Positions 33,501 through 49,800 of a DNA stretch of 64,000 nt are shown one piece after another. Location of the stretch: NCBI RefSeq assembly GCF_032362555.1, contig NC_083516.1, positions 7,899,001 through 7,963,000 of the forward strand, given 5' to 3'. The translations under genes and the position numbers were made by a program. The notes beneath the pieces are model-generated. The model was not told the DNA's origin, did no database searches, and was given only the letters and a program-made list of their open reading frames with translations. Position 1 is the first letter of the stretch, and the number at the start of each line of letters is the position of its first letter. This stretch comes from Amyelois transitella (taxonomy: Eukaryota; Arthropoda; Insecta; Lepidoptera; Pyralidae).

Positions 33501-36500
33501 ACGAAGTTTTGTAGTGATATCCAATATGAATCGTATCCGTGAAGCTTGGAAATGTCCTTTATTTGGAAATACGAGTGATTTAAAAGAGAATGTGCTTCCA
33601 ACATACGAAGATGTGATAAAGTGCTACGAGTGGACGAGGTTTAATATGAAAGTGATGAACAATACGAAAAAAAATCCAAGTTTTCAAGAAGTTTCAGATA
33701 TTATTACCGTAAAAATAGAAAATATATGGAAGAAAGCATCACTTCCAATTGTATCTCACTTAAGAGTTAATCAAATGTTAAAAACTTATCATCTTAAATT
33801 TAAAAATATATTGAAATCACATCCTAAAATTCCTAAAAAACGTTTAGAAGACTTTCTAGCTTCAAGTCATGTTTAATTTGATATTTCTAGTTGCAAGTGC
33901 TTAGATTTTTCAGAATGTACTTGCCCAAGGGAAAAAAAAGTCCCATCAAGTGAGCAACGTTTTCTTATCGACCAAAGATTTGAAAGAAATATGATGATAG
34001 GAAACACAGATGTTACTGCAACGAGAAAAAATAAAATTCGTTTACAGAGGAAACTAAAAGACGATAAATCAAAAAGTTATCACTCGAAAATAATTCCCAT
34101 TGCTTCTACAAGCTCAGACCAGCCAGTAGTCCAAAGCTCCTCATCTTCTTCACCTGACACATCTGGTGACAGTGACGATTTCCAACCAGAAACAGTGAAA
34201 CGACGTAAGATGAAGAATTCTGACGGTATGAACTATTCTTTACTGTCTTAAACCTGCGATCGGTATAGTGTATCAGACAGAGCAGCTGCAGCTATAGCTT
34301 CCGTTGTTTTGCATGAGATTAAAAAGCCTATAATTGATAAAAGTAAATTGAGAAGAGAAAGGAAGAAAGCTCGAGAAAACATCATTGAGACACAAAAAGT
34401 GAGCGCAGTACCTGCTTTATTTTTTGACGGACGTAAAGATAAAACATTAGTGTCGACGAAAAAAGGTGGAAAATACTACAAAGAAATTATATTTGAAGAA
34501 CACATTTCGTTAATCAAAGAACCTGATAGCATTTACTTAGGTTATGTCACCCCAGCAGCTGGAACAGCTAAGCATATAGAAAGAGAAATTAATTTCTTTT
34601 CAACTGAAAATATATCTCTAAATAATCTAATGGCGATTGGATGCGATGGCACGAATGTCAATGTTGGAAAATTTGGTGGTGTAATTAGATTAATGGAAAA
34701 AACATTGAACAGACCTTTGCAATGGCTAATTTGCTTGCTGCATATGAATGAACTTCCATTTCGCCATTTATTTTCTTTTATTGATGGTTCGACTTCTGGT
34801 CCGCGAACATTTACAGGTGAAATAGGAAAAGATTTAGAAAAATGTGAAGAAAAAGCTGTCGTAAGATTTTGTATTATTCCTGGACTAATGCCATTAATTG
34901 ACACAAAAGATCTTAGTTCTGACCAACTGTATTTATATAGAATAGTTCTGGCTGTCACTTCTGGTGAATGTCCTGAAGACTTACCTGATAAGTCTCCAGG
35001 AAAAATGTCTCATGCCAGATGGCTAACGCGTGTCAATAGAATCCTTCGTCTTTATATTGCAACATTAAATCCATCTAATGAACTTATTACTTTAGCTACT
35101 TATATAATAAAAGTATATGCCCCAATATGGTTTAATATTAAAAGCCACCCAAGTTGCAAAGATGGTGCGAGACATTTATGGCAATTAATCTCAAAATCTC
35201 GCTACTTATCAGCAGAGCTAAAGGCTGTAGTCGATCCGGTAATAGAACGCAACAGTTATTTCGCCCATCCCGAAAATCTATTGCTTGCGATGTTGACAGA
35301 CTCTCAAAAACATATAAGACAATTGGCGTTGCGTCGTATATTAAAAGCGCGAGGCGAAGATTCACACAGGTTAAGATTATTTAAGGTTCCAGATGTTAAC
35401 ATGAATGCAAATGTGTATTATGATATGATTGACTGGAAGAATCGAATTACAGATCCTCCTATCTTAAAACACATTAAAAACGAAGAACTTGAACAAATTA
35501 TTGCCAGAGGAGAAGATAATAAAATAGATTTTCTTCGATTGCCTTGCCACACACAAGCTGTAGAGAGGTCTGTTAAGATGGTGACAGAGGCATCAGCTAG
35601 CTTGTGCACTAAATCTTCACGAGAAGGTTACATAAAGAGTAAGATTGAGTCGCGCAAGTTCATGCCAAAATTTGACAGTAAGAAAGATTTTTGTGTTCAA
35701 TCTACTACCTCATAATTGTAATTAAAACCTTGTTATAACTTAGTTTTATTTTTTATTAATAAATTTAGACTTTAAATACTTTGTTTTCTTATATTTAACC
35801 TGTCCTGTACATCATAATAAATAAATAGTTTTTTTATTTTTAAAAGAGTAAAAATTGTCAATTTTTTTTATTTCAAGGTCAATCCGGAGACAGTAGGTAT
35901 AATGCAATTTTCATGAAATTTATTCTGTAACTTCATATAGCCATATGACATAGTTTTTTTGCTATTTGAAGTTTAAATAATGAAAAAAATTTTTTTTCAT
36001 ACAAGAGTGACCCACCCTAATGAATAGGCAAAGCGAAAAAAACCTCTAACCTCACACTATGAGTTTTTCGTGCGTTCCAGACATTTCTAACCAGAAAATT
36101 TTATCCTCAGTTCGCAACCAAAACGGTAGCCGAAGTGCTCACTATGATATACTTGTACCTGATTTGGAACGTGTTCTTCCAATTTGCCGTGATCTACGTC
36201 AGCGAGGGTTCCTACACTCCTGAGAACCCTGCAAATTGCAGCTGGATTAGCAAAGCCCGACTCTGGAATGAGACTGCTAGCCTTAGGTTCATCTTCGCTT
36301 TTGATAGAGCTGGTAAGGCGTCTTCAGAGTAAGAGATAAATTCGTAATTCATAAACATTCGGTGATGGCATGACGCGAGGCTACGTGCTTTTCAATGCTG
36401 TTGGCTCTGTCTACCTCGCATGGGATATAGACGTGATTATATGTATGTATGTATAAAAGCAAATCTCTCAATCTGTTTCAGTGAGCATGTTCAGAAAGAA

Positions 36501-38790
36501 CCACATAGAAAGTCAGCAAATACACAGACCCACGGAATGTGTGGAAATTTTCTTTGTAATGTCTTGGTTTATTACGGAGGTAAATGTTTGCTTTTTATTT
36601 TTAGAATAACAACCCTCAAAAGGGAAAAAATATATTCTGTAGGCGATGTCTGTCTGTCTATTAAGATTTCCGTCTACTCTGTAATGTCGGTAATGCGTAG
36701 ATATTGGTAATTCGAATGCCTTCATTAAATTTTTTAGGGCTGAATGATAAATGAAAATATTACAGATAGAAAAAAAACTTTCAGACGATTTTATACACAA
36801 TGCATTTATTTAACAAATATTACAACAGAATTATTATTGTTACAAGCACTTTTATGTATTTAGGTTGTATGTTTATGTAGATATCTTAGTGTCATAGCAC
36901 TCAGGTAAGTACTTCATAATATTTCCTTATTTGTAAAAATATATTTCGAAAAGATAAGACTACAGAAGTGCTTTGATGAATTTGACGTCGCAACTGATTT
37001 GTGAGACCACAATTTTCATATTGCTGACTTGCCTCATCTAAGATTATGGTAAAAAGGCACACCTCTGGCCTCCAGTAAAGTTATGATGTAACCGGGACAC
37101 CAGGAAGAACTTTTCCATTATGCAAACTTGATTTACCTAGTGTATATAATATAAGTCATTAGCGCGACCCGGGCTCCTCTCCAGAGTGAGAGAGGTTGAA
37201 GTGAGGATCTAACTCTAGAACAACAAACGTTAATGTGACAGCTTTACAACTGAGCGGACGCAGACGTGCGAACGTAAGACAGACCATAAAAGATACATCA
37301 TTACTTGAACTATTATAGTAGTATCAGTTCAATATGGCAATTCTATTGTCTAATGTTATTTCGATATCTATATTTTTTTAGTTTTTACTGATACACTGCG
37401 CGTTAAAATACATAATGTCAATGCTGGGCACCGAGGCGGCTAAGGCTAAATACTTCACGATGATAAAGCAAGTAGAAATGTACATGAACCAGAGGAAATT
37501 TCCACCGAGGATCAAGAAGAAAATTCTCAAGTTCTACGCTTTGAGATTTCAGTCTAGTTTTTTTGAGGTACTTAACTCTCACATTTTACTGAATTGTTGG
37601 CTGTTCGAAAGGTTGACTAAAAGCAACGTTTATTAAATGAACCCATTCACCCACCCAAGTAATTACAATTTAAAACATGGGGAAATCTAGTTTCGATTAC
37701 TGTAAATCTGTGGAGTGTCAATCATTGAAGCCTGAACGTTCAAAGACGAAAAAATCCGTAGACCAGCGACTGTCGGAAGACAGCTCAATTTCAGTATAAT
37801 ACGAGTAGCTGTGTGCTTAGTAACTACACGGACTACCACAACTCCTTTCCCAACCCTACCTTCCTTCCTCCCGTTCCAACCCTTTATCCATGCCAAACCC
37901 TAAATACTCGTACCTATATCAATTTTCAAAGGAATACCGCATGTTGAGCTGCGTCTCCGGTCAACTCCGTGGTGACATCATCATGCACACTGGAGGCGAA
38001 CTGGTTAGAGAGATGGAGTTCCTAAAGCAGCTGCCGGGTTCGCTACACCTCCAGATCTGTATGAAACTGAAGCTGGTTATATTTATTGCTGGCGACATCA
38101 TTTTCAAGATCAACACTATCGGTGAGTTTCTTTTTTTCTTATTCTTCCTTCTAACGATAATCCCAGTTACTTCCTCACCTCTTTGGCGTGGATGCGGGGT
38201 GTGCCTTTTGACCATGATCATGGATTGGGTTAGTAGGGAATTTACACGAAGCGACTTCAGTCTGACCTCCGCAACGTTTGAAGTGACCCTCATAACGGAC
38301 ACGGTAAAAACTGTACTAGATTAATCAACCTAATTTTTTATTAACTTATTCCTTTACACATATTCAATGAACCTGCCGTAAAGCAACTCAGTCCTAAAGC
38401 TTTGAAACGTTCATATGAACTGTCCAAATTTTAATTCATTAATATAATTCAATAACAGGTGACTGCCTCTACTTTATCCACAAGGGAACTGTTGCCATTT
38501 ACTCGGAATCCGGTCGAGAAGTATGTCATTTGGAGGACGGAGATTTCTTCGGCGAAATAGCTTTAGTGAGAAAGCACAAGTTTCGAACGGCCTCCAGTAT
38601 TGCAGTCACAAATTGCGAGTTGTTTAGACTTGACAAACAAGATTTTGAAGGATCTGTGGCGTGTTACCCGACTGTTTATGAATATTTCAAGAACTTGGCC
38701 AATAAAAGGTATGAGAGAACTTGCGTGTTGAACGAACATCATAAGTCGGAGTTACGAGTCATTAGCAAAGCCGAGGAAAGTCACAAGTGA
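30547..38790 (+). CDS. CNG/HCN-type cyclic-nucleotide-binding channel-like protein
   Basis: Eight exons (30547-30728, 31377-31548, 32465-32770, 36111-36312, 36482-36579, 37382-37567, 37932-38121, 38459-38790) join in frame to give 555 residues. Six hydrophobic segments are visible: S1 LWIEIVFVMSMILSHTLLAL, S2 LTDFVNILNIFVNFFTG, S3 DMLSAISFIPALF, S4 VAMKIFRVPILIIYL (few basic residues), S5 TMIYLYLIWNVFFQFAVIYV, S6 VEIFFVMSWFITEFLLIHCA. A C-linker (QVEMYMNQRKFPPRIKKKIL) and a cyclic-nucleotide-binding domain follow; its phosphate-binding cassette FFGEIALVRKHKFRTAS keeps the FGE and RTA residues. The S5-S6 linker has no TxGYG or GET selectivity filter. Membrane protein, probably a ligand-gated channel or a regulatory subunit. 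I know such divergent CNG-like proteins only loosely from insects. Confidence 0.82.
31240..31345. repeat. Foldback element (family F) in channel intron 1
   Basis: acgcgcaagtaacgtacctt and aaggtacgttacgtcc face each other around tcgaaacgtcggagataaa, in reverse orientation to the copy at 23225. Confidence 0.7.
31690..31952 (-). repeat. Family D copy in channel intron 2
   Basis: Antisense, from atctatactaatattataaa to cgaagtcgcgggcacggcta. Confidence 0.78.
33136..36019 (+). mobile_element. hAT-like DNA transposon with 12-bp TIRs and 8-bp target duplication
   Basis: The element is 2,884 bp. Its ends are perfect inverted repeats: TAGGGTGGGTCA at 33136-33147 and TGACCCACCCTA at 36008-36019. The flanks are the perfect 8-bp duplication ATGAATAG (33128-33135 and 36020-36027). 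Eight-base duplications with TA/CA-starting ends fit the hAT superfamily, though P, Merlin and some others also make 8 bp. It sits in intron 3 of the channel gene, in the same orientation. Perfect duplications and nearly intact coding argue for a recent insertion. Confidence 0.88.
33526..35715 (+). pseudogene. Transposase of the hAT-like element, two nonsense codons
   Basis: A single reading frame of 730 codons runs from the ATG at 33526 to TAA at 35713-35715, broken by only two TAA codons at 33874-33876 and 34249-34251. Across both stops the frame continues with protein-like sequence (VCKC-type Cys pattern after the first, CDRYSVSDRAAAAIASVVL after the second), so these are point changes and not frame shifts. 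Landmarks are FFDGRKDKT, IGCDGTNVNVGKFGGVIRL, a following PLQWLICLLHMNELPFRHLF, and near the end FLRLPCHTQAVERSVKMV. The D-x-T..G..G pattern followed by His residues resembles the hAT RNase-H-fold region. I recall similar proteins as uncharacterised in many invertebrates. As read, the copy cannot make a full-length protein. Confidence 0.85.
36395..36455 (-). repeat. Family A fragment in channel intron 4
   Basis: gttggctctgtctacctcgc then gatatagacgtgattatatg and GTAT repeats, ending just before exon 5. Confidence 0.65.
38150..38312 (-). repeat. SINE family C fragment in channel intron 7
   Basis: taatcccagttacttcctca through gtgccttttgaccatgatca to cttcagtctgacctccgcaa, the body of the SINE without its tRNA head. 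It creates a spurious open frame running on from exon 7. Confidence 0.72.
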
Positions 38791-39079: not shown

Positions 39080-40770
39080 ACACTATAATTTTCAGCATCA
39101 TAATTTTATTTTTAACCTTCCACCAAAGTATACTCGTCGTTAATAAAATTTAGAAATGAGAATCAAATTAAAGTGATGACTACAGGAGCATGCATCACAA
39201 CCAAATTTAAATTTGTTTGGGAAACAAATTTACGAAAACGAAAGTAATATGTATAGTGTTTTGTGAAATTGACCAATCACAGCACGTCTAGTAAAAAAAA
39301 AACTTTTAAATATAGTTAATTTGGCTTGTATGTTCCTACGACAGTTGTTTAAAAAGTCACCGAACTTTCAAACAGTTCGGAAAATCCAGTTTTGCTTATT
39401 GATGATGCAAAGTTACCAAACATATTTAACATGCATTATCTGCGCTTATAAAACTGCAAAAATAATACGCATTTATTAAACCGACCGCTTCATTCTCATG
39501 GTCACTCTAATAACACTTATTATCCGTTTCACATGACATTTTCCAATTAAATTCTAATGGAAAGCTGCTTAGTAACCAAAGACATCACAACTTAACCTAA
39601 TCTAGCTTATCTATCACAATAAAATATGCATCTTTTGTTCAGTACATTTCCTCTACGCCGCTTTGTGCTAAGGTTTGTAACAAAGGACTTCTTTAACATC
39701 AGGACTTAGTTCAACCCTCTGGACATTATTAAAGAGGAATTTAAAAATATTTCGAATATTCGAGGGCTCTATAGAAAATTCTGGAATGTTCGGGAATAGT
39801 TTATCAACTCTTGTAATTAATAATCATATATATTGACATCATTAACAGGATAGCTTTTTCTGTATGTTGTATATAAACTCCGGTAGTATACAAAATATTT
39901 TAAAATCATTTCGCCATTAAAAATCTAGGAACAGCATTTAATTAGTAAAACCTTATTGTATATAATTATAATGTTCTTCCCTCGTTTGGGGGTAGTACAT
40001 TCCGTTCATCTCGTATGGGACCATAGTTCTGAAACAAGATACAATAGTTATATCATAACAACAAAACAGATTTTAAAAATATCTGATGGGAAAATAATCT
40101 TACTGACCGGAGATAGAACCCGGAAAATTCAGATTCAGAAGAAAGTATGTTACCACTGCGCAATGAGAGCGTCGCATTCACAGAAGGTCTGTCCCAACTT
40201 TCCAAATATTCTATTAAATGAAAAAATGAGTCATCAGACAATAAATACCAAGTTTTTAAGCTATCCTTGTAGGCGATGGGCTAGCAACCTGTCACTATTT
40301 GAATCTCAATTCCATCATCTATCATTAAGCCATACACAGCTGAACTCGGCCTTTCAGTATTTACAAGAATGTTGGCTCTATCTACTGCGCAAGGGATATA
40401 AACGTAATTATATGTGTGTATGTATGTTGACTTTATCTATACTAATATTATAAAGCTTGAAAGCACTTATCTCTGGAACTACTGTTTCGAATTGAAAAAT
40501 TCTTTTTGTGTTAAGTAGACCATTTTTCGAGGTAGGCTTTAGGCTATATAACATCACGCTGCAACTATTAGGAAATAATGGAAAATGTGTAATTATGGGT
40601 AAATCCTTGAGGATTTCAATGATGCCCAAAATAACTATTCCACGCAGACGAAGTCGCGGGCACAGCTAGTAATTTATATAATTTTAATTTTCGGTATAAT
40701 ATTTCGGAAAAATATCCTAGACCTTTTGTCCAAATTTTAGTATAACAAAACTATAAAAAAAAAAAACTCA
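39080..40770. other. Gene-free stretch between channel and PAN2
   Basis: No coding exon is visible on either strand, which matters because PAN2 nuclease exons would be expected here. An open frame at 39956-40453 reads through a SINE-like piece (ggagatagaacccgg, about 40110-40220), a family A copy (40258-40432, antisense) and a family D copy (40435-40672, antisense), so it is not a gene. Confidence 0.6.
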
Positions 40771-40771
40771 C

Positions 40772-40800
40772 CCGTCACTATAGGGCCCATACAACATCGG
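40772..40800 (-). other. Post-stop remainder of the last PAN2 exon with donor-like site
   Basis: After the TAG at 40803-40801 the sequence continues 29 bases to CGG|GTGAGT, a strong donor starting at 40771. This suggests that the exon is, or was, spliced to further exons; none is recognisable downstream. Confidence 0.5.
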
Positions 40801-43800
40801 CTATGACGTGTCGTGGAACTGCACGCTCGGCGTCGAGTAGAACAGGACGCAGGGCGACTTCCACCAAGCGCTGTACTGCGTCACCTCGTCCGGACTAACT
40901 GGCACTATGCTGTGGAAAAAAAGCTACTACACTAGCTGTCCCGGCAAACGTTGTTTTGCAATAATAAAAAATATAAATAATTTTACGGTTGACTAAGCAG
41001 ATATACATGGAGAGTGTGGAGGGAAAGGTCGGGGTGGGAAGATCTAGACGAACATATCTTGATCAAATTAAGGACGTCCTGGTAAAGGGTCAGGTCAAAA
41101 GTACCCGAAACCGCCGAGCTTGCATGAAGAGAGTTATGAATGTGGATGAAGCAAAGGAAGTATGCAGGGATCGTGGCAAGTGGAAAGAGGTAGTATCTGC
41201 CCCTCCGGGAAAGAGGCGTGATTTTATGTATGTATGTATAAATAATTTTTCATTAAGGGATAAGGGATAGGCTTACAAACTTAGAATTCTTTTTTAGGCG
41301 ATGGGCTAGCAACCTGTCACTATTTGAATCTCAATTCTATCATTAAGCCAAATAGCTGAACTTGGCCATTCAGTCTTTTCAAAGCCGTTGGCTCTTTCTA
41401 CCCCGTAAGGGATAAAAGACGTGACCATATGTATGTATGATAAATAACTTTTAAGTAATTTTCTAGTTAAAAAATGTTAAGGGTGGACAACCCTTATCAC
41501 AAAGGGTTATGAAAAGTAGATGTTGGCCGATTCTCAGACCTACTCCATATGCTCAAAAAAATTCATAAGAATCGGTCAAGCCTTTTCGTAGGAGTACGGG
41601 AATCAACATTGTGATACGAGAATTTTATATATAAAATTAAGACGTAAAGAAGGAAGGAGTAGGACATAGGGTACCTTTCATCCCGGTAAAACTAAAGTAC
41701 CGTGGCCGTTTGTTTCCGTGCCGTGTGGTTCCCGGTACCAATCCAAAAAAGAATAGGACCACTCCATCTCTTTCCCATGGATGTCGTAAAAGGCGACTAA
41801 GGTATAGGCTTGTAAACTTGGGATTCTTTTTAGGCGATGGGCTAGCAACCTGTCACTATTAGAATCTCAATTCTATCATTAAGCCAAATAGCTGATCGTG
41901 GCCATTCAGTCTATTCGAGACTGTTGGTTCTGTCTACCCTGCAAGGGATATAGACGTGACCATATGTATGTATGTAAAACTAAAGTTGAGATTTGCACAA
42001 AAACAGTATTCTTTTGTAGGTGGCGCTAAATTCGCGCGTGTAGGTGGTGCTAGTTCGGCGCGGGCGCAGGAAACACAAGTATATTCACCACAGATCGTTG
42101 AACATGTGCCAGTGCTGCCCCCCGCGGCCGGTCTGGATGTAGGCCACCAGGTTCTTAGGGTTGTCCTCTACCGCCGCCACGGCCGCGAACAACGTGTACT
42201 GCTCCTCCGATTGTGTCGTCACTTTCCTCTTATGTTTCTCTAAACGGGAATTGGGAGTGACAGGTTCCGTTGGTGATTGTTCAGCCTGGAAAATATAATA
42301 AAGATTTAGTCCAGACAAAGAGTTACGAATTACCTTTTCCCACTTTCTAAATACATACATACAGGTCAAACTGAGAACCACCTTATTAAGGCGGTTAATA
42401 AAAAAAAAAATTTCCTTTCTCTCAATAGCTTTGGGGTAACAAATATTCTCATAGGACTTTATATTGACAGCTTTATTTGGTTAAAAGGCGACTAAGGGAT
42501 ACCCTTCAAAACTTGGAATTCTTCTTTTAGGCGATAGACTAGCAACTTATAACTATTTATTAAGCCAAACAGTTCAACATGTCCTTTCAGTCTTTTCAAG
42601 TCTGTTGACTCTGTGTACGTGATATGGACGTGATTATATGTATGTACGTTGTTTGGTCAAATTTAATAACCTTATCATTGATTATTACGTCGCCATCAGA
42701 CTGCAATCTTATCAGCAACTGATGCGGCAGCACGGAGTCTTGATTTTGTTTTGATGCACTCTGGTTCGGCCTGTTGATCGAAAATCATTTAATCATACGC
42801 CTATTTTAAAGACATGATTGTTTTATTGTAATTCCTTGTTATTGAGAAAGTGTGTATGGGGATCGTGGCAAATGGAAAGATGTGGTCTCTGCCTACCCCT
42901 CCGGGAAAGCGGCGTGATTTATGTATGTGTGTATTGAGAAATTATATATTATTTCTTGTTGTCATCTTAAGTTCTGACGAACGTCGTATACTACTTACAA
43001 ATTTATTGAATATTAATTGACTTTAAACCATTGTCATTGATATATAGTAAAAAAGTATATTTACCTGTCAGGATGTTTGAACCTGCAACCGAGTCGGGCA
43101 CAGTGCAATCCGTAACGACACGGCTTACCACTACCCCCCCTTTTCACTTCTGGCTGGAAAATTAATTGGTAATTTTATAATGCAATATTTGACAGCGCAG
43201 AATCAAACCGAATAAAAACCTCAATAAAATAACGGCCTTATTACAAGTACATTAAACCTCAATATCCAAAAACAAAATGCTATCTCTCAAAATAGCAGGC
43301 AGATCGCGATTAAAAGTTGCCAACTCTGATAAGAGTAAGCTGATAGGCTGAAATATTTCGCGCCATACAAAAATTTTACTTTTTAGCATGTATGCAACAC
43401 ATGGTTGGTTGGTACAAATACCCAAGTCTCAAATATCGTAACAATGTTTTACAGTCACACAACAATGTATTATATTGTATCGTGTACAATAACATTTGCA
43501 GACCTTAGAAAATTATAATCAAGACAGTAAACAATCTGAAAGTGTGTGTTATTATTTACCACATCCTTTTGCGCCCCTTTAGCCCAGAATGCCTTCTCGT
43601 GCGCCGTCACACCACCACAGTTTATAGCTAAAATCGGGGGTAATCTGAAACAAATTAAATTATTAATTTTTTAATTATTGCCATTGCGAACATTACCTTC
43701 AAGTAAAGATATTTTTTTAATAAATAAATAAAGATATATGGTACAAATTACACAGATTGAGTTAGCCTCGAAGTAAGTTCGTTAGACTTGTGTTACGAGA

Positions 43801-46800: not shown

Positions 46801-49800
46801 GAGTTACCGGTAACAAACAGCCTGGTGCCACGCAAAACCCTAAAAGTAAATTTTTTATTTTGAAATTTTTATTTTTTACAGCCGATTTTATTTTATTTTA
46901 TGTTATTTTATTAAAACTTGCACAACACTACAGCAGTAAACAGCTGTGAGGTCAATAGCATCTTAACGATCACACCCATTGGCCCACTGGCCTAATGTCG
47001 ACGCCACCCGTCTGTACTCCTGGTACTTTAAAATAGTATTTTAGAGCCAGGGTTCCGGATATCTTTTTTTTTTGTTTTTCTTAACTAAGTGTTCCTGCTT
47101 TTTTCTTTACTTTTTACTATTTAGCTGACGAGTCCCACCTGCGAAACTTGATTTTTTACTTTATCTCATTAAAATTACAACTTTACACTGAAGGCTGTTT
47201 GAATATCAGTGTTTCATATGACTCTTCAATCTCATGGCAAAAAAGAAAACTGACTAACAGTTTCTCATCAATTATTTTAGCAGATTAATTGTAGCAACTA
47301 AAATACCGGACTAGCGTTTTTACAGTAATAAAGTAAAAGTAAAACAACGAACTAAGCGTACTGAATAATATCAATGTAGTAGTTACCAGAGAACGTGTTT
47401 GTAACATTATGAAAAACTTAAATATGAAAGAAATATTTTTTAAAGAAATAATAATTAAAAAGAGAAATAATCAAACTATTATTGAATCACAAAATCCGAG
47501 CAAACTATTGTTGTTGGTTTTAACTAAAATTTTCCAAATGAACCCTGAAATAGGCGTGACTTTTCTTTGCAAGGAGCAAAGAGCAAGGTCGATTAATAAT
47601 GTATTAAAATGGTTCCGGATATTTTAAGAAATTTTCTATTACGATCGAAATTCTTTTTCATATTTTAAGAAGCCGATTAACGAATATCGTCATAAATTAA
47701 TAAAGCTATTACTAATGATCTAGTACTTAAATGACGTTTACATAGGTTGTTAAAAGTCCGGGAAGAAAGAAATGTTCGTGAAGGGAAACATGTTTTCTTT
47801 TAAGTCTCTGATCCTTGCGGACGTCAGACGGCAGTCTCTCTGCGTCATCTGCATCAACAACACTGCTCTTTTTTGCATCATGGGTAAAAACATCTCCGAA
47901 TAAAATAAAGGAATTAATCATTTAGCTACCAGGATTTCATGGATACGCAAGAGGTTTAATTTATCTACTTAAAAATAAATGAAAACGGGCCCCTATACTA
48001 CCAAAACGAGAAGGCAAGACTAGATAGAGTACTTGTCTCTCGTTCTTAAATTCGACTAATTCAAGGTCAATATTCAAATTTGAGAGTGTGTGTGTGCGCA
48101 GTCAATGGGTTCACTGTCTAGTACACTAAGCGCCGACCAATGGCGCTACGCCGCGAGACAGGTGATGTACACGTATCCTTTCTTCCGCTTTAGGGTAAGT
48201 GAGGGTAAAATGATGATCCCACCTGATTATTTACGTTTGTGATTAGTAAACTTTTACTTTGTTTAATTTTATCGCCACATTCATAAAAAAGTTGTCAACA
48301 TTTAGTCAACCTAGGAAACACGTTTTGTACATGCCACTTTTTCCTATTGGTAAGAGTGGTAGTAAGTATGGTAAAATTTTGAAATCAAATAATACTGTTT
48401 TTAACCCGTTTATTATGGTAAAATTAATAAGATATTGAATCAAAGGGACAAAACATATTTGTACTAAAATAATTTTATTTCACCTTTGTTTACAAAAATA
48501 GCCGGTTAACGTGACCGTGGTCGACTTTGCCCGTGTCTCCCCTGTACTAGGATGCCAGAATCGGGAAGCGGAAATGTACAATTATTTGAGAAGTCAATCA
48601 GTCGTTCGCTATCCATTTGCGTGACAACCAGTGCTGCCATTTTAACGCTTTGGGCGCTAGATCTAGCGCTTTTTTATGTGTTTGGTGCGCTTTACAGAAT
48701 TATGGCACCTAGCGGATAATCTGGTGTTTTTTTTAATTTACATCATGACATATTAAAAAACTCTATGGCTCTATCAGCATCAGTTATTTTAAAGCCTAAT
48801 AGAGTGTTTTTTTGTTTGTTTGCTTTATTTCATTCAAGAAAAATTGTTCTTTTAGCGCGATATCTAGCGCTTTTTTAAAGCACAATTTCCAAGAAATCGA
48901 GCGCTTTTTTACATCTTACAGCGCTCAATCGGATTTTTGGTCTGGCAGCACTGATGACAATATTGTTTGTGTTTGTGTTTTGACTTTTTCGTACACGTGT
49001 TCTCTTTCGTGATTTCTTTGAGTAATTCAGAATATTATTACGACTACAATGAACATTATTGGTCGCATACCTAGCTACCAATCCACATGTTTTTACGGAG
49101 TCATCTTTCCAGTACCAGTGGCGGATAAATGTGTTGGCTGGATGCTGGAATAGTCGGAGATGTTGTCGTTGAACCATATTTTTTGCCTAACAGCCTAAAT
49201 TTCCTAGAAAATTACTTAAATGAGGAACAGTAATGCCAGTGAGAAGTTACGTGGATATCGTGATGGAAAACAACCTAATATTCCAACATGGTGGCGCTCC
49301 AGCTCACTTCGCTCGTGATGAGCGCAGCCACCTCAATGCCCGGTTCCCGGAATGGATTGGACGAGGAGGACGTATCGCATTGCCTCCGCGGTCTCCAGAA
49401 CTCACACCACTTGACTTTTTTTCTGGGGATACATTAAAAATAAAGTGTATGCGTCGGATTCCCCTTCGAGCGAAGAAATGGTTGCCCGCATCAAACCGCA
49501 TGCGATACTGTAACGCCAGGAATGCTTCGCAATGTCTGGGTTTCCATTTACCGGAGAGCTGACTTGTGCATCCAAGGAGGTCGACGTTTTGAACCCTTTC
49601 TTTGAAAGGTATGTAGGTTTTCAATCTTTCTTTGACTTAGTTACCAATTTATTTTGTAATGTAGGTAATTATTTATTAGCTTGCATGAAGAGTTATGAAT
49701 GTGGATGAAGCGAAGGAAGTATGCAGAGATCGTGGAAAGATGTAGTCTCTGTCTATCCCTCCGGGAAAAAGTCGTGGTTTTATGTATGTAGGTAATTATT

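Follow-up and report, generated by a model that had tools for sequence, protein, structure and literature searches.

Of the two conserved deadenylases of the cytoplasm, one has PAN2 as its catalytic half, the subunit that normally shortens the poly(A) tails of mRNAs. Why two such enzymes exist is called an unanswered question in an excerpt of one study (PMC4033318). The connecting segment of known PAN2 proteins binds PAN3, as stated in part of PMC4158885, and passages of PMC6547884 describe, for the yeast protein, a contact between the UCH-like domain and the knob of Pan3 as well as a deadenylase cavity shaped by residues of both the RNase and the UCH-like domain. After the UCH domain, human and Neurospora PAN2 carry a recognisable linker (NSRYNLNIKNPIEASVLL and NHRFNMDWKTRLDTSVLF, respectively).

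We analysed a window of 64,000 nucleotides, which is the whole stretch of DNA under study (C12:7899001-7963000 of the assembly). The repeat families and the chromosome-like contigs of this assembly look lepidopteran. The window carries an orthologue of PAN2, by its sequence and by the order of its domains, which on the evidence given below is not a PAN2 nuclease.

Structure and conservation of the PAN2 gene

The gene spans positions 58446-40772 on the minus strand and has 22 exons, which were placed by splice sites and reading frame:

58446-58395 and 57780-57620, minus strand: E1 and E2, start and N-terminus (in-frame joins, GT/AG sites)
57170-57001, 56309-56189, 55173-54974, 54472-54244 and 53461-53322, minus strand: E3 to E7, WD40 domain (Pfam PAN2_N)
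52794-52642, 52091-51995 and 51918-51823, minus strand: E8 to E10, region of the connecting segment
51392-51276, 50998-50917 and 46487-46330, minus strand: E11 to E13, N-terminal half of the pseudo-UCH domain
45731-45482, 45370-45344, 45079-44940, 44683-44496 and 43644-43560, minus strand: E14 to E18, middle of the pseudo-UCH domain
43153-43065, minus strand: E19, predicted CCCH zinc finger inside the UCH domain (phmmer against PDB, Pfam)
42770-42671 and 42285-42089, minus strand: E20 and E21, C-terminal part of the UCH domain, to HMFNDL
40909-40772, minus strand: E22, end of the UCH domain, in-frame TAG, open frame PMLYGPYSD, then donor GTGAGT at 40771

Exons E1 to E21, together with E22 up to the TAG, encode 986 amino acids with every join in frame. 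The original prediction had counted 20 upstream exons joined in frame; rebuilding the gene by hand preserved the frame and raised the number to 21. The likeness to PAN2 as far as the end of the pseudo-UCH domain was also borne out, since the 986-residue product matched human PAN2 (PDB 9qtu chain C; phmmer, E = 6.7e-140), the PAN2_N/WD40 profile (Pfam PF20770; E = 3.7e-51, 174.5 bits for a cut-off of 26.6), and the UCH_1 profile (E = 1.4e-77). In the Cys-box region of the UCH domain the USP cysteine is replaced, and we take this domain to be catalytically inactive.

Identity to human PAN2 varied along the protein. It amounted to 108 of 312 aligned residues in the WD40 domain (part of E2 included), 15 of 45 in E8, 23 of 36 in the core of the connecting segment (E9 and the start of E10), which makes this segment recognisable by sequence, and 6 of 29 for the remainder of E10. 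In the UCH domain, 66 of 119 residues were identical in the N-terminal half (E11 to E13), 9 of 16 at the start of E14, 36 of 107 aligned residues in the middle (residues 711-818), and 15 of 39 at the end. The best-conserved large parts are the core by which known PAN2 proteins bind PAN3 and the N-terminal half of the UCH domain. The lower identity at the UCH end, over just 39 residues, would fit a relaxed contact with a lost nuclease.

Just downstream of exon 13 and outside the gene model, this exon and the beginning of its intron recur in two incomplete copies on the minus strand, at 46192-46061 (about 131 bases, 91% identity) and 45951-45911 (41 bases, 83% identity). The 4.4-kb intron 12 holds a transposase-like open reading frame (49233-49562, plus strand; read by eye). 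Upstream of PAN2, a gene at about 61.2-59.4 kb on the minus strand is, by our reading by eye, presumably dynactin subunit 5. The channel gene that had been placed beside PAN2 is present downstream of it; it lies on the opposite (plus) strand and ends near 38790 by eye, so that the two genes stand tail to tail. Read by eye, its end resembles a cyclic-nucleotide-binding domain up to 38790. A 468-residue open reading frame upstream of this end (34309-35715, plus strand) looks by eye as if borne by a repeat.

Search for the nuclease

No nuclease exon had been visible when the window was first read, and none was found on either strand by tblastn with the human PAN2 nuclease (best E = 1.1). When the human, Neurospora and yeast nucleases were all compared with the window, a single match fell below E = 1 (0.91), and an HMM built from the three sequences gave a best E of 0.71 among 3,517 six-frame segments of the window (at least 12 amino acids each). 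As a positive control, the human WD40 and UCH sequences were compared in the same way; nine matches reached E ≤ 3e-4, and every one lay within the PAN2 gene, the second copy of exon 13 accounting for one, while matches outside the gene started at E = 0.039; the diverged exon 22 itself was missed by this control.

A genome-wide search had been proposed along with the original prediction. The search made here covered 327,366,114 bases in 33 contigs and, with the human PAN2 nuclease as a query, yielded 22 candidates at 31-39% identity (best E = 1.6e-6), among which no PAN2-type nuclease was found. The human PAN2 nuclease is 51% identical to that of Neurospora and 48% to that of yeast, and an insect PAN2 nuclease would thus be expected to stand out. 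Ten of the 22 candidates, judged from their alignments (and one also from its DNA), resemble REXO1, REXO4 and ISG20-like proteins. The other 12, judged by place and identity alone, lie in one array with locus L010 (C12:5.50-5.62 Mb), which is among the ten and, as the single copy of the array inspected, looks REXO1-like. This region (C12:5503412-5619546) holds at least 13 DEDDh copies, nine of which score equally and are spaced by about 10.24 kb, and four related copies lie at C12:4.92-4.96 Mb.

The PF00929 profile matched the genome eight times, and the nuclease queries matched five of these eight loci, at 28-43% identity (all except L001, L002 and L005). A match on contig C27 (position 1153942, query residues 172-234, E = 0.069) was rejected as a C-terminal exon of PAN2, because in locus L019 it looks like part of an ISG20-like gene, namely the final exon, and has a stop of its own. 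The PAN2_N profile identified a single locus in the genome, through two exons of the present gene; since only these two were detected, weaker exons evidently escape such a search. The C-terminal DEDD nuclease of an active deadenylase was not found by these searches.

The end of the coding sequence

The last recognisable exon had been predicted to run into a stop, and the gene rebuilt by hand indeed has an in-frame TAG in E22 after the end of the UCH domain (FYSTP). This exon shares its first codon with E21 and encodes the UCH end, where residues 938-976 align to residues 884-922 of human PAN2. The TAG stands about 30 bases upstream of the donor at 40771 (GGGTGAGT). The donor had been described as strong, and this holds: with a scoring matrix built from the 21 upstream donors of the gene, it was equalled by 37 of the 6,985 GT sites on both strands of the window. 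No GT upstream of the TAG in E22 scored more than 3.1, and the lowest leave-one-out score among the 21 PAN2 donors was 3.3. An earlier donor in E22 (40807), whose use would skip the TAG, was rejected as weak (score, 0.4).

The alignment of yeast PAN2 ends before the linker, and the linker comparison was made with human and Neurospora PAN2. Downstream of FYSTP, none of the three frames of E22 resembles the linker, and it was not recognised elsewhere in the gene either. In the window, the human linker found its best match at 61.6 kb (E = 0.045), beyond the 5' end of the PAN2 gene and so outside it, the Neurospora linker reached just E = 0.79, and a linker motif of our own making had zero matches. 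These results point to a replaced C-terminus rather than one interrupted by a single base, an argument of middling weight given that yeast PAN2 is unaligned there. A simple base error in the stop as the sole cause is disfavoured, since the linker is not recognisable either.

The frame stays open from the TAG to the donor at 40771, and one further exon can be proposed:

40028-39953, minus strand: X23, candidate terminal exon in frame with E22, GTMVPYEMNGMYYPQTREEHYNYIQ and then a stop; AATAAA at 39477

The acceptor at 40028 opens this exon of 76 bases in the right phase, the exon ends in TAA, and the AATAAA lies 476 bases downstream of it. The 34 residues past the TAG had no Pfam match. The codon score of X23 was 3.5, compared with a mean of -6.5 for open intronic stretches, and lies within the range of the PAN2 exons (mean 8.0, SD 5.2, in a model trained on these same exons); 184 of 2,585 open intronic stretches of 25 codons reached the same score. 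Among the other acceptor-like sites of the window, 9 of 635 passed the same test as X23 (minus strand, 2 of 314; plus strand, 7 of 321, where passes may include real exons), and for the 13 acceptors scanned between 40771 and 38500 about 0.18 such exons would be expected by chance. An acceptor at 40558 (score, 7.9) has the same phase and opens a longer frame of about 49 codons. The evidence for X23 as a last exon, without a nuclease, is suggestive only. Neither X23 nor the finger of E19 formed part of the original prediction.

A CCCH finger within the UCH domain

Fingers of the Nab2 type follow the general spacing C-x5-C-x4-6-C-x3-H. The peptide encoded by E19 has the spacing C-x5-C-x4-C-x3-H, which fits this rule, and by its pattern E19 is a predicted CCCH finger, Nab2-like in spacing. 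In a phmmer search of PDB, the finger peptide (34 amino acids) matched Nab2 at E = 1.4e-8 (2lhn_A) and 1.5e-8 (5l2l), values that are summed over three fingers, while the best single Nab2 finger reached E = 0.078-0.082. The top single-finger match was to ZC3H12A (2n5k_A, E = 0.0028; 5h9v, 0.052). The Pfam zf-CCCH_2 profile (Nab2 type) gave 18.6 bits on a piece of 73 amino acids (E = 0.0027) and 14.8 bits on the whole PAN2 product (E = 0.044), both below its cut-off of 25.8 bits, and the peptide had no NCBIfam match. Composition adds to these scores, since an unrelated cysteine-rich peptide also gave two weak matches (E = 0.029 in Pfam and 0.042 in PDB). The motif is absent from residues 752-965 of human PAN2, the stretch compared.

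Probable loss of the nuclease and alternative explanations

We consider it likely that the sole PAN2 gene found in this genome has lost its DEDD nuclease and encodes a nuclease-free scaffold, which would end at the TAG or in a short tail. Three options had been put forward for the early stop, and they do not fare equally. A truncated PAN2 is best supported, because the search of the whole assembly yielded no PAN2-type nuclease, PAN2_N found one locus, and the window contains no N. A base error in the stop combined with lost nuclease exons fits less well, given that a linker of the human and Neurospora type is not recognisable either. A local rearrangement or an assembly deletion is possible but less well supported than a truncated PAN2. 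Nor does the gene look decayed, since the 21 upstream exons keep their frame and splice sites.

The tail itself is less settled. In a possible, though not favoured, variant the TAG is read through or is a sequencing error, and the product continues via the donor at 40771 into X23, gaining a tyrosine-rich tail and no nuclease. This variant overlaps with the preferred explanation, since it changes the tail alone. The open frame after the TAG, the matching phase of X23, its codon score (3.5 against -6.5) and the AATAAA 476 bases downstream speak for it, but the same score is found in 184 of the 2,585 intronic stretches, about 0.18 exons of this kind are expected by chance, and the in-phase acceptor at 40558 gives an even longer frame. 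Read by eye, both introns that flank E22 contain repeats; together with the strong donor after the stop and the partial copies of exon 13, which represent local duplications or assembly trouble, they would fit an assembly or local structural error in which the true nuclease exons belong between E22 and the channel gene, with a misassembly at the TAG or in the 3' part of E22. This is improbable, since the window contains no N and is inside a contig of 11.36 Mb, a PAN2-type nuclease was not found anywhere in the assembly, and the missing linker and the TAG would require several independent errors; moreover, every GT before the TAG scores at most 3.1, against 3.3 for the lowest donor in use.

The many DEDDh nucleases of the genome raise the question of a gene fission, after which the PAN2 nuclease would be a separate gene acting in trans. 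We regard this as very unlikely, as the nuclease matches are 31-39% identical and none comes near the 48-51% identity between the human and fungal PAN2 nucleases, 10 of the 22 candidates are REXO/ISG20-like on inspection, and the other 12, judged by place and identity, lie in one array. The least probable reading is that the locus is a pseudogene and that PAN2 function is wholly gone. A stop ahead of the catalytic domain and the weak conservation of the UCH end (15 of 39) could be taken as decay, but 21 exons with splice sites and an open frame, and conserved connecting and N-terminal UCH segments, argue against it.

Possible role of a nuclease-free PAN2

The truncated PAN2 would retain three parts, the WD40 domain, the PAN3-dimer clamp of the connecting segment and an inactive UCH domain, and its product would end at the TAG of E22 or, with read-through, in the short tyrosine-rich tail. 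Such a protein may act as a scaffold without catalysis, keeping PAN3 and the partners of PAN3 bound to poly(A) RNPs; this is the simplest role, because the PAN3-binding sequence is kept but the cutting domain is gone. The CCCH finger could provide a direct contact with RNA, perhaps with poly(A). For yeast, part of PMC4158885 reports that the finger of PAN3 binds poly(A) and that Pan3 binds RNA, while isolated Pan2 cannot, and a finger within PAN2 could thus add an RNA contact. A finger-bearing PAN2 might tether PAN3 to the tails, help to recruit other deadenylases like CCR4-NOT, or shield the tails; poly(A) trimming would then be left to other enzymes. An excerpt of PMC4033318 describes CCR4-NOT as the main deadenylase in Drosophila cells, where the knock-down of Pan2/Pan3 was milder than that of CCR4-NOT. 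Loss of PAN2 activity may therefore be tolerable.

A broader and rather doubtful proposal is that in an entire lineage of insects PAN2 has lost its nuclease and linker and become a poly(A)-binding scaffold with a Nab2-like finger in the pseudo-UCH domain, so that PAN2-PAN3 would anchor or guard the tails and CCR4-NOT would trim them; the finding that ZC3H12A is the best single-finger match weighs against it. If the nuclease was indeed lost, a lineage that keeps a PAN3-binding PAN2 would be a natural separation-of-function experiment, and the constraint on its PAN2 gene could not come from a tail-trimming activity of its own.

Comparison with known systems

None of the pattern matches, 9 in viral contigs and 15 in genome contigs, was confirmed as a relative, and among the matches listed from the open-licence literature no paper described an insect PAN2 that lacks its nuclease. 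The finger resembles those of Nab2 (2lhn, 5l2l and 4lj0) in spacing and local sequence, but Nab2 has seven fingers, according to part of PMC4158885, and E19 encodes a single one within another domain. In ZC3H12A (2n5k and 5h9v), the spacing between the second and third cysteines is one residue longer in the alignment, and this protein, unlike the present PAN2, has a ribonuclease of its own (titles of the PDB entries). The N-terminal CCCH finger of PAN3 is related to poly(A) and belongs to the same complex, but it is carried by PAN3 and not by PAN2, and in yeast Pan3 its spacing (Cys14, Cys23, Cys30 and His34) differs from that of E19 (both in excerpts of PMC4158885). The order of WD40 domain, connecting segment and UCH domain is the same as in known PAN2/USP52 proteins (human 9qtu chain C, Neurospora 4czw, and yeast 4q8h, 4xr7 and 6r5k). 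Unlike in these proteins, the linker and the DEDD nuclease were not found here, and the UCH domain contains a CCCH finger (compared with the human stretch). Judged from its predicted product, the gene encodes a variant of a known protein, a PAN2 without a recognisable linker or nuclease and with an unusual CCCH finger, and it is the sole PAN2 found in this assembly.
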